A stretch of 64,000 bases of DNA. Source: Bordetella genomosp. 10. Its GTDB lineage: Bacteria > Pseudomonadota > Gammaproteobacteria > Burkholderiales > Burkholderiaceae_B. Shown piece by piece: positions 1,505-50,900 of this stretch (within the stretch, counting starts at the first letter, position 1; the number at the start of each line of letters is the position of its first letter). Under the pieces are notes generated by a model that had not been told where the DNA came from, made no database searches, and was given only the letters and a program-made list of their open reading frames with translations. The stretch spans positions 2,542,001-2,606,000 of the forward strand of contig NZ_NEVM01000005.1 of the NCBI RefSeq assembly GCF_002261225.1. The letters run 5' to 3'. The translations under genes were made by a program, and so were the position numbers.

Positions 1505-2731
1505 ATGGCCGTCAACCTGCAAATCCCCTCGGAATCCGAGATTTTCCCCGTCCCCGGCATTGAAATCGGCGTCGCCGAAGCCGGTATCCGCAAGGCCGGA
1601 CGACGCGATCTGACGGTATTCCGCCTGGCGCCGGGCACCAGCGTGGCGGGCGTGTTCACCCGCAACCGCTTCCGCGCGGCGCCGGTGCAGGTATGCGAAG
1701 CCCATCTCGCGGCGGGCAAGCAGATCGCCGCGCTGGTGATCAACACCGGCAACGCCAACGCCGGCACGGGCGCCGACGGCATGCAGCGCTGCAACGACAC
1801 CTGCGCCGCGCTGGCCCGGCTGCTGGACGTGCAGGCCGACCAGATCCTGCCCTTCTCCACCGGCGTCATCCTGGAGCCGCTGCCGGTCGACCGCTTGGTG
1901 GCCGGACTGCCCGCCGCCATCGCCAACCTGGGCCCGAACAACTGGTTCAGCGCCGCCCACGGCATCATGACCACCGACACGCAGCCCAAGATCGCCTCGG
2001 TGCGCCGCGACATCGGCGGCAAGACCGTCACGTTCACCGGCATCAGCAAGGGCGCCGGCATGATCCGGCCGAACATGGCGACCATGCTGGGCTTCCTGGC
2101 CACGGACGCCGGCATCGCGCCCGAACTGCTGAAGCGGATGGCGCGCGAAATCGCCGACGTGTCCTTCAACCGCATCACGGTCGACGGCGACACGTCCACC
2201 AACGACTCCTTCATCATCATGGCCAGCGGCCAGTCGGGCCTGCGGGTCGACAGCGCCAACGATGCCGCCTATGCCGAGCTGCACCAGGCCCTGTCGGCGG
2301 CCGCCGCCGAACTGGCGCAGAAGATCGTGCGCGACGCCGAAGGCGCCACCAAGTTCATGACCATCCGCGTGGAAGAAGCGGGCACCACCGAGGAAGCCTT
2401 GAAAGTAGCCTACGCCGTGGCCCATTCCCCGCTGGTCAAGACCGCCTTCTACGCCTCCGACCCCAACCTGGGCCGCATCCTGGCGGCGGTAGGCTATGCC
2501 GGCATCGACGACCTCGATACCGCGAAACTGCGCCTGTGGCTGGACGACGTGCTGGTCGCCACGGCGGGCGGCCGCAACCCCGAGTATCGCGAGGAAGACG
2601 GCCAGCGGGTGATGAAGAAAGCCGAGATCCTGGTGCGCATCGCGCTGGGCCGCGGGTCGGTGACGGACACGGTCTATACCTGCGATTTCTCGCACGACTA
2701 CGTCAGCATCAACGCCGATTACCGTTCCTGA
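1505..2731 (+). CDS. argJ: Bifunctional ornithine acetyltransferase / N-acetylglutamate synthase
   Basis: ArgJ moves acetyl from N-acetylornithine to glutamate and can also make N-acetylglutamate from acetyl-CoA, so it serves both the first and fifth steps of cyclic arginine biosynthesis in the cytoplasm. The 408-residue protein has the family's usual length. It carries the autoproteolysis site in KGAGMIRPNMATML, where the Thr of MATML becomes the N-terminal nucleophile of the beta chain after self-cleavage. The ATG at 1505 is chosen because the family N-terminus begins at MAVNL; an upstream in-frame ATG at 1457 adds only non-conserved residues. The 3' end runs straight into a tandem repeat whose first unit includes the TGA stop. 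Confidence 0.97.
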   Translation: MAVNLQIPSESEIFPVPGIEIGVAEAGIRKAGRRDLTVFRLAPGTSVAGVFTRNRFRAAPVQVCEAHLAAGKQIAALVINTGNANAGTGADGMQRCNDTCAALARLLDVQADQILPFSTGVILEPLPVDRLVAGLPAAIANLGPNNWFSAAHGIMTTDTQPKIASVRRDIGGKTVTFTGISKGAGMIRPNMATMLGFLATDAGIAPELLKRMAREIADVSFNRITVDGDTSTNDSFIIMASGQSGLRVDSANDAAYAELHQALSAAAAELAQKIVRDAEGATKFMTIRVEEAGTTEEALKVAYAVAHSPLVKTAFYASDPNLGRILAAVGYAGIDDLDTAKLRLWLDDVLVATAGGRNPEYREEDGQRVMKKAEILVRIALGRGSVTDTVYTCDFSHDYVSINADYRS

Positions 2732-2806
2732 GCCCGGTTCCCGAATCGCGATTCCTGAATCACGATTCCCGAACCATCGTTCCGAACGACTGTTCCCGAT
2801 CCTGGA
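2724..2806 (+). repeat. Degenerate 13-15 bp tandem repeat across the argJ stop codon
   Basis: About six head-to-tail units with consensus TTCCYGAAYCRCGA start in the last argJ codons and fill the whole space to the next gene. The argJ TGA lies inside unit 1 (TTCCTGAGCCCGG), and a second TGA recurs in unit 3. The units are diverged, so this is an aged repeat. It is one of several in this window that begin on a stop codon. Confidence 0.8.
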
Positions 2807-2813
2807 CATCGAA

Positions 2814-3680
2814 GTGACCATCAACGATTTCACCACGCTGATCTCCCGCGCCGAGCGTGTGCTGGCGCAACTCGAAGCCTATCTGCCGCCGGCCCCGCCG
2901 GAAATCGATTGGTCCGCCCGCGCCTTCCGCTGGCGCCGGCGCGGCTCGCGCGGCTGGCTGGACGCGGTGCGCCACGTCGCCCAAATCGATATGGCCGACT
3001 TGCAGCATATCGAGCGGCAGAAAGACATCATCGACCGCAACACCCGCCATTTCATCGACAAGAAACCGGCCAACAACGTGTTGATGACCGGCGCGCGGGG
3101 AACGGGCAAGAGTTCGCTGGTCAAGGCCATGCTGGCCGCCTACGGCGACCGCGGCCTGCGCCTGATCGAGGTCGACAAATCGGACCTGGGCGACCTGGCC
3201 GACATCGTCGAACTGGTCGGCGCGCGCCCGGAACGCTTCATCGTTTTCTGCGACGACCTGTCCTTCGAGGAAGGCGAGGCGGGCTACAAGGCGCTGAAGT
3301 CGGTGCTGGACGGCTCGGTGTCGGCGTCGGGCGACAACGTGCTGATCTACGCCACGTCCAATCGCCGGCACCTCATGCCCGAGTACATGAGCGAGAACCT
3401 GCAGGCCAGGCACCAGCCCGACGGCGAAATCCATCCCGGCGAAACCGTGGAGGAGAAGATCTCCCTGTCCGAGCGCTTCGGCCTGTGGCTGTCGTTCTAC
3501 CCCTTCCGCCAGGACGACTACCTGGACATCGTCTACCACTGGCTGCGCGAACTCGGCTGCCCCGAGGAGCACGTCGCGCCGTCGCGCACCGAAGCCCTGC
3601 AATGGAGCATCGAGCGCGGCTCGCGCTCGGGGCGCGTGGCGTTCCAGTTCGCGCGCGACTGGGCGGCCCGCCATGCCTGA
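2814..3680 (+). CDS. DUF815-family P-loop ATPase
   Basis: The 288-residue protein has a clear Walker A motif GARGTGKSS at residues 93-101 and a Walker B-like FIVFCDDLSFE at about 142-152, the layout of AAA+-related DUF815 ATPases. The biological role of the family is not established, so no function beyond ATP binding is assigned. A GTG at 2814 is used; the sequence just upstream is the argJ-anchored tandem repeat and offers no strong ribosome binding site. The last 8 bases overlap the mutT fusion gene, so the two are probably translationally coupled. The argJ-ATPase-mutT order is what I would expect in Burkholderiales. Confidence 0.9.
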   Translation: MTINDFTTLISRAERVLAQLEAYLPPAPPEIDWSARAFRWRRRGSRGWLDAVRHVAQIDMADLQHIERQKDIIDRNTRHFIDKKPANNVLMTGARGTGKSSLVKAMLAAYGDRGLRLIEVDKSDLGDLADIVELVGARPERFIVFCDDLSFEEGEAGYKALKSVLDGSVSASGDNVLIYATSNRRHLMPEYMSENLQARHQPDGEIHPGETVEEKISLSERFGLWLSFYPFRQDDYLDIVYHWLRELGCPEEHVAPSRTEALQWSIERGSRSGRVAFQFARDWAARHA

Positions 3681-49984: not shown

Positions 49985-50100
49985 GCGAACGATCCGGAAA
50001 GTGGCGCGAAACCGGCATTTTATCGGCGATCAGCCGACGCGCGCTTTAAGTTACTCTACCGCGTCCGGCCCGGCGCCGAACCACAGAATCAGGAATCCCC

Positions 50101-50883
50101 ATGCTCCGCGTCATCTCCGCCAATCTCAACGGCATCCGCTCCGCCACCACCAAGGGCTTCTTCCCCTGGCTGGAAGCGCAGAAGGCCGATTTCACCTGCC
50201 TGCAGGAACTCAAGGCGCAGGCCGCCGACATGACGACGGAGATGCTCAACCCGCCCGGCCTGCACGGCTATTTCCACTACGCGGAGAAGAAAGGCTACAG
50301 CGGCGTCGGCATCTACGCCCGCAAGCAGCCGCTGCAGGTGATCGAGGGGCTGGGCGTGCCCGAGATCGACAGCGAGGGCCGCTACATCGAGCTGGTCTAC
50401 GACAAGCTGTCCGTGATTTCCGTCTACCTGCCTTCGGGCTCCAGCGGCGACCACCGCCAGGCGGCGAAATTCGCCTTCATGGAGCACTTCTACGGCCACC
50501 TGGCGACGCTGTTCAAATGCGGCCGCGAAGTCATCCTGTGCGGCGACTGGAATATCGCGCACCAGGAGATCGACCTGAAGAACTGGAAGGGCAATATGAA
50601 GAACAGCGGCTTCCTGCCCGAGGAACGCGCCTGGCTGACCAAGGTGCTGGCGGAACTGGGCTGGGCCGACGTATACCGCGGCCTGCATCCGGACACCACC
50701 GGCGAAGCCTATACGTGGTGGAGCAATCGCGGCCAGGCCTGGGCCAAGAACGTGGGGTGGCGCATCGACTACCAGATCGCCACACCGGCCATCGCCGCCA
50801 CGGCGCGGCGCGCGGCCATCTACAAGGAGCAGCGCTTCTCCGACCACGCGCCGCTGACCATCGACTACGACTTGAAATTCTGA
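50101..50883 (+). CDS. xth: Exodeoxyribonuclease III
   Basis: This AP endonuclease and 3'-exonuclease acts in base excision repair. The 260-residue protein shows the family blocks VISANLNGIRSA, CLQELKAQ with the metal-binding Glu, ILCGDWNIAHQEIDLKN, and RIDYQIATP...SDHAPLTIDYDL with the final catalytic His. The TGA stop is included in a 14 bp direct duplication. Confidence 0.96.
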   Translation: MLRVISANLNGIRSATTKGFFPWLEAQKADFTCLQELKAQAADMTTEMLNPPGLHGYFHYAEKKGYSGVGIYARKQPLQVIEGLGVPEIDSEGRYIELVYDKLSVISVYLPSGSSGDHRQAAKFAFMEHFYGHLATLFKCGREVILCGDWNIAHQEIDLKNWKGNMKNSGFLPEERAWLTKVLAELGWADVYRGLHPDTTGEAYTWWSNRGQAWAKNVGWRIDYQIATPAIAATARRAAIYKEQRFSDHAPLTIDYDLKF

Positions 50884-50900
50884 GCGTGAAATTCTGAGCG
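50873..50900 (+). repeat. 14 bp direct duplication including the xth stop codon
   Basis: TGAAATTCTGAGCG occurs twice back to back with no mismatch. The first copy carries the true TGA stop at 50881-50883; the second repeats it in another frame. The identity of the copies suggests a recent slippage event. Confidence 0.95.

Follow-up and report, generated by a model that had tools for sequence, protein, structure and literature searches.

Why should short tandem repeats lie over the stop codons of unrelated genes? The question is raised by a stretch of 64,000 nucleotides from Bordetella genomosp. 10 (contig NZ_NEVM01000005.1, positions 2,542,001 to 2,606,000), hereafter the window, in which a first-pass annotation had noted such repeats at six genes: argJ, a mutT fusion (Nudix-ThiE), zapD, panC, gatB, and xth (Table 1). 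The repeats are real and overlap the true stop at all six: at each site, the sequence 3′ of the stop was shuffled 300 times by dinucleotide, and not once did a shuffle give a tandem self-match as good as the observed one. In the case of argJ, this test places the best ungapped run at +3 to +52 past the stop, and only the gapped call of Tandem Repeats Finder (TRF) covers the stop itself.

Bacterial spacers carry short tandem duplications and minisatellites resembling those with a variable number of tandem repeats (VNTR). The arrays considered here share with VNTR-like minisatellites their head-to-tail units of ~10–40 bp, which are imperfect, vary between close relatives, and lie in non-coding DNA, but they differ in that the stop is often contained in the first unit, and in that the asymmetry between stops and starts has been measured. 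A literature search turned up no description of tandem arrays over bacterial stops, which is not proof of absence. It is fairly likely that the arrays represent short tandem duplication filtered by selection, and most of the asymmetry needs no stop-specific process. A striking pattern of stop-codon repeats can therefore arise from plain duplication plus selection, which provides a simple null model for claims of back-up stops or stop-linked elements.

Arrays Overlap Stops Much More Often than Starts

The sequence set comprised the window (G+C content 68.6%) and stretches of six related genomes (G001 and G004 to G008), 2.44 Mb with 1950 called genes. These genomes are assigned to the genus of Achromobacter sp. 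HZ34, which is also the nearest named genome among the matches listed for the xth protein (92% identity); median protein identity to the window is 91.5–94.7% for G001, G004, G005, and G008, and ~84% for G006 and G007. Bordetella genomosp. 12 (G002), sampled over 400 kb, served as the outside control. Genes were called with a purpose-made Markov caller, not a published program, which makes a simple choice of putative starts; unannotated genes inflate what is here termed non-coding DNA. Arrays were defined by a TRF score of at least 40 (at least 50 in a stricter set) and a period of 7–60, with overlapping TRF rows merged; spacers shorter than 20 nt, gene ends at sequence ends, and arrays with at most 5 nt outside genes were left out of the counts.

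By this definition, an array lies over the stop in 43 of 1340 cases and over the start in 4 of 1474 (spacers ≥20 nt; odds ratio 12, Fisher P = 2e-10). The asymmetry is real: the stricter set spans 30 stops versus 3 starts (Fisher P = 2e-7), and spacers of at least 60 nt yield 31/990 stops versus 4/1280 starts. The link with gene 3′ ends proposed from the six sites is thus borne out, and starts are not overlapped equally often. The 43 stops correspond to 42 arrays, one of which (G004 54797–54845) covers two convergent stops. The window contributes four sites to this count, namely argJ, the fusion, panC, and xth, whereas zapD, unreported by TRF, and gatB, whose period exceeds 60, stand outside. 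In Bordetella genomosp. 12, arrays span 0 of 173 stops and 1 of 227 starts, and the stop counts of the two sets differ with P = 0.012.

Reciprocal-best orthologues are available for 27 of the 43 array ends, and for each of these 27 genes one or more orthologues have the stop at the homologous position, a check that leaves 16 ends without an orthologue in the compared stretches. A comparison of orthologous 3′ ends, along the lines proposed by the first-pass annotation, reveals that 21 of the 27 share no stop-spanning array with any of the orthologues examined, while 6 (three pairs) do; the arrays thus turn over between species.

Probable Duplication and Selection, and the Choice of Null Model

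We infer that the arrays stem from slippage and that the asymmetry is due to selection. Slipped-strand replication or repair probably makes short tandem duplications. When the unit contains the stop, the first copy, and hence the protein, would stay intact, while later copies would land in weakly constrained sequence and could degenerate unhindered; at a start, on the other hand, a duplication would disturb the ribosome-binding site. Under such filtering, arrays would be expected to occupy 3′ spacers as far as the stop and a little beyond it, and to be scarce at starts. The simplest reading is that stop overlap far exceeds start overlap because copying a stop harms little, whereas copying a start does harm.

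Array coverage has no peak at the stop itself. In co-directional spacers it is level from the stop onwards (0.038 at 0–15 nt, 0.043–0.046 at 15–80 nt), and near starts it amounts to 0.006 at 0–15 nt, climbing to ~0.05 past 80 nt. In convergent spacers, coverage climbs from 0.080 at the stop towards 30–60 nt (0.118 at 30–45 nt). Conservation past the stop is weak: in four genome pairs, orthologue identity is 0.51–0.68 over the first 15 nt past stops, compared with 0.78–0.82 over the last 15 nt ahead of starts. Moreover, re-placing the arrays at random within their own spacers, with starts and a 15-nt buffer barred, accounts for 33 of the 43 stops, and for 27 of the 28 in spacers of up to 150 nt. 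Taken together, these results leave a stop-specific process mostly unneeded.

Whether stops exceed chance hinges on the null chosen, so that the expectation of stop overlap above chance holds against uniform placement over all non-coding DNA (43 versus 12.5) and against re-placement in the own spacer (29.5), but not in spacers of up to 150 nt with starts barred. Free placement of arrays touching non-coding DNA gives 33.5 expected stops (45/1000 placements reach 43) and 35.9 expected starts, and none of 1000 placements is as low as the 5 starts observed (5 rather than 4, as spacers from 6 nt were admitted in the coverage and free-placement test), which implies that starts are depleted. Within spacers, with starts and the 15-nt buffer barred, 33.3 stops are expected versus 43 in all spacers (50/4000), 31.4 versus 37 in spacers of up to 300 nt (349/4000), and 27.0 versus 28 in those of up to 150 nt (1752/4000); for the stricter set, the corresponding figures are 24.9 versus 30 (381/4000), 23.3 versus 27, and 19.5 versus 21. 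Across the three within-spacer nulls, the 28 stops in spacers of up to 150 nt compare with 23.9, 24.9, or 27.0. Much of the excess therefore lies in which spacers bear arrays and not in their position inside the spacer.

Several results weigh against duplication and selection as a full account. When arrays are placed anywhere in non-coding DNA and may intrude on coding sequence by no more than one unit, 12.5 stops and 14.3 starts are expected, and no placement in 1000 reaches the 43 stops observed. A survival model, in which only duplications that are wholly non-coding, stop-spanning, or leader-carrying persist, predicts 13.5–15.4 stops and 0.7–3.7 starts: start counts fit roughly, and stops stand about threefold above the uniform rate, an excess that may be ascribed to constraint on long, divergent, and unannotated spacers. 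Re-placement in the own spacer yields 29.5 stops versus 43 (2/2000 reach 43), or 30.9 with starts barred without a buffer (9/4000); since leaving starts unbarred enlarges this within-spacer excess, duplication filtered by selection becomes slightly weaker and a mutational hotspot slightly stronger. Array boundaries are densest from −15 to +15 of the stop, at 2.07 and 1.80 per kb, and thin out to 0.45–0.93 per kb past 60 nt, and orthologue identity at 135–150 nt past the stop is 0.39–0.49 and thus does not rise with distance (unequal spacer lengths lower it in part). A gradient of constraint behind the fall in boundary density is therefore not demonstrated, which again lowers the selection reading and raises the hotspot slightly. 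Finally, short convergent spacers are rich in arrays: among spacers of 20–150 nt, 39 arrays occur in 184 convergent spacers versus 30 in 521 co-directional ones (odds ratio 4.4), in a test that tallies arrays, not spacers.

Could Gene Ends Be Mutational Hotspots?

A mutational hotspot at gene ends, one of the meanings offered by the first-pass annotation, is possible. In its general form, gene ends, and above all convergent ones, would suffer breaks or single-stranded DNA left by termination of transcription or translation or by head-on polymerases, and repair would duplicate the sequence. The peak of boundary density around the stop, the threefold excess over uniform placement, the residual within-spacer excess (43 versus 29.5–33.3), and the richness of short convergent spacers all speak for it. 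However, coverage is without a peak at the stop itself, the excess is gone in spacers of up to 150 nt with starts and their buffer barred (28 versus 27), and the weak post-stop conservation means that tolerance predicts nearly the same pattern. We therefore regard this explanation as unlikely, and consider it improbable that in this genus termination or head-on transcription creates a true hotspot, at which stops are duplicated by mutation and not merely spared. Convergent spacers do not decide the matter: their richness is predicted alike by relaxed constraint and by a termination-linked hotspot. Over spacers of all lengths, arrays amount to 0.35 per kb in divergent, 0.80 in co-directional, and 0.81 in convergent spacers.

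Loss of DNA-repair genes was considered as a cause and rejected, as all nine genomes searched contain the Ku and the MutS family, the two repair families that the search covered. In two of the genomes, the mutS match is split near model position 317–320 (G001:C13:1143450-1146095 and G008:C13:1293187-1295838); in both, mutS forms one open frame, as would result from an in-frame insertion of ~30 codons, and the match is unsplit in the other seven genomes.

Spacer Growth and Back-Up Stops

Another suggestion was that spacer DNA grows, with tandem duplications selected, for instance, for insulating genes. The argJ array fills the 82-nt spacer up to a DUF815 gene (ArgJ and DUF815 by Pfam), and the orthologous spacer is only 14 nt long in G001, G005, and G008, yet in G004 it reaches 81 nt and differs in sequence. 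Only 14 of 24 array-bearing ends have a spacer above the orthologous median (Mann-Whitney P = 0.46 versus 749 other ends). A gain in length is thus not shown, and we deem selected spacer growth very unlikely.

Extra copies of a stop might also be retained as back-up to halt ribosomes after readthrough. A stop triplet is in register in 61 of 101 later copies (at 42 of the 43 array ends), and genes with arrays are richer in stops within the next 10 codons: 37% of the 43 array ends have one in frame, and the shares for the two remaining frames are 40% and 49%, compared with 17, 16, and 17% by frame among 1297 other genes. However, over the 101 later copies the agreement with the first copy is 0.81, 0.84, and 0.71 in the stop columns and 0.68–0.87 in the neighbouring ones, so the stop is kept no better than its surroundings; nor do the extra stops at the 43 array ends prefer the gene's own frame. 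Neither column conservation nor frame thus lends support to stop-codon back-up, which is highly improbable. A survey of bacteria (PMC6764699) reported no selection for additional stops, and the absence of a back-up signal here agrees with that result. Like additional or tandem (fail-safe) stops, the arrays place further stop triplets 3′ of the primary one. Fail-safe stops, however, are in-frame codons tested for selection, whereas the stops considered here ride on duplicated DNA, occur in all frames, and decay like their neighbours.

A Dispersed Palindromic Element at gatB

Judged by its sequence, the gatB repeat is a separate class, a dispersed palindromic element placed directly after the stop. 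Its 75-bp unit has 45 matches in G004, 48 in G005, 46 in G006, 62 in G007, 11 in G008, and 3 in G001 (E ≤ 1e-6), counts that are rough, with at most 40 candidates scored per genome; at the same threshold, no match was found in G002, G003, G009, G010, and G011. By eye, the gatB stop is directly followed by two copies in the window as well as in G005, by at least two in G004, and by a single one in G008. The element is predicted to fold as RNA (z −3.3, 0/200 shuffles). With repeated extragenic palindromes (REP) it shares a short palindrome-bearing unit that is dispersed and at times tandem; of the six window sites only gatB fits this type, a likeness that rests on palindrome and dispersal. RAYT is a transposase associated with REP-like elements.

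At two sites outside the window, G004 C12 388839–388867 and joined G006 stretch 54134–54164, duplications of 14–16 bp over the stop are directly followed by gatB-like palindromic sequence (by eye). These duplications could be linked to insertion of a gatB-like element.

The first-pass annotation had excluded a single mobile element, which holds for five of the sites and fails for gatB. That one mobile or palindromic family inserting after stops should explain all six is scarcely credible: gatB is such an element and the two outside sites abut its sequence, but the other five units are unrelated, and the readable unexpanded junctions at argJ and panC fit local duplication.

The Six Sites of the Window

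Apart from gatB, the sites carry short tandem duplications of 13–41 bp with the true stop in the first copy. The copies are adjacent at all six sites, and the local origin of the unit can be read, by eye, only at the junctions of panC and argJ: at argJ the final unit lines up with the G001 junction, which is unexpanded, and at panC the final unit runs into the sequence that G004 and G005 have directly 3′ of the stop. The repeats had been described as beginning on the stop, which they do not. Their first base precedes it by 2–8 nt at argJ, the fusion, panC, and xth, by 11 nt at gatB, and by ~50 nt at zapD; likewise, position 2724, formerly taken as the start, sits 3 nt inside the argJ array. 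The gene names are supported by Pfam at five of the six sites, while the protein at the sixth matches only the broad endonuclease/exonuclease/phosphatase family, so that xth is the first-pass label.

Table 1. Repeats at gene 3′ ends in the window (positions counted from its first nucleotide).
Feature	Position	Strand	Repeat and stop	Basis
argJ 3′-end array	2721-2799	+	~14 bp, six degenerate units; stop TGA 2729-2731 in first unit	TRF
Nudix-ThiE fusion 3′-end array	4664-4740	+	13 bp, ~six units; stop TAA 4666-4668 in first unit	TRF; Pfam NUDIX and TMP-TENI
zapD 3′-end repeat	15360-15460	-	41 bp; stop TGA 15406-15408	Repeat search; ZapD Pfam
panC 3′-end array	19421-19462	-	15 bp, 2.8 units; stop TAG 19456-19458	TRF; Pantoate_ligase Pfam
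gatB 3′ end	48991-49147	+	Two tandem 75-bp copies of palindromic element abutting stop TAA 49002-49004	Repeat search; GatB Pfam
xth 3′ end	50873-50900	+	Perfect 14-bp duplication; stop TGA 50881-50883 in first copy	TRF

No stop-spanning array was present in the orthologues compared for argJ (0/4), the fusion (0/4), panC (0/6), and xth (0/6). The zapD repeat, which reaches ~50 nt into the gene and consists of two copies that are 71% alike plus a partial copy within the gene, was not seen by eye in six orthologues. The xth gene is convergent with a minus-strand gene (50933–51124), and its stop is without an array in 80/80 loci from the xth protein matches listed. RNA structure as a common trait was rejected: at the five sites folded (all but zapD), z is −2.3 for argJ, −3.3 for gatB, −1.7 for the fusion, −1.3 for panC, and 0.2 for xth.

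Array Abundance in the Genus

Spacer arrays with a score of at least 40 reach 0.30–0.91 per kb in the samples of related genomes and 2.25 in the window, and drop after shuffling to 0.015–0.076 and 0.26 per kb, respectively; Bordetella genomosp. 12 has 0.15 per kb versus 0.04 shuffled. Their units are mostly 11–18 bp long or about twice that. The window is the richest sample, yet it was picked for this very feature. By a rough proxy applied to whole sequences (score ≥50, periods divisible by 3 excluded, copy number below 15), the window has 6.2 arrays per 100 kb, the genus samples 1.2–7.5, and Bordetella genomosp. 12 0.2. The 80 listed xth-match loci, when pooled (521 kb, one locus from G001), give 2.1 per 100 kb, which lies inside the range of the genus, so that we do not claim the genus to be exceptional. 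It may be that the genus is ordinary in its arrays, and that the Bordetella control is unusually poor instead.

The window contains further arrays. A 15-bp, 3.2-copy array (33345–33392) lies in the spacer upstream of cheD, away from called stops. A 13-bp, 2.2-copy TRF array (60511–60538) overlaps an inverted repeat; its first base is the final stop-codon base of a gene at 60086–60511, which has a histidine-kinase-like ATPase domain.

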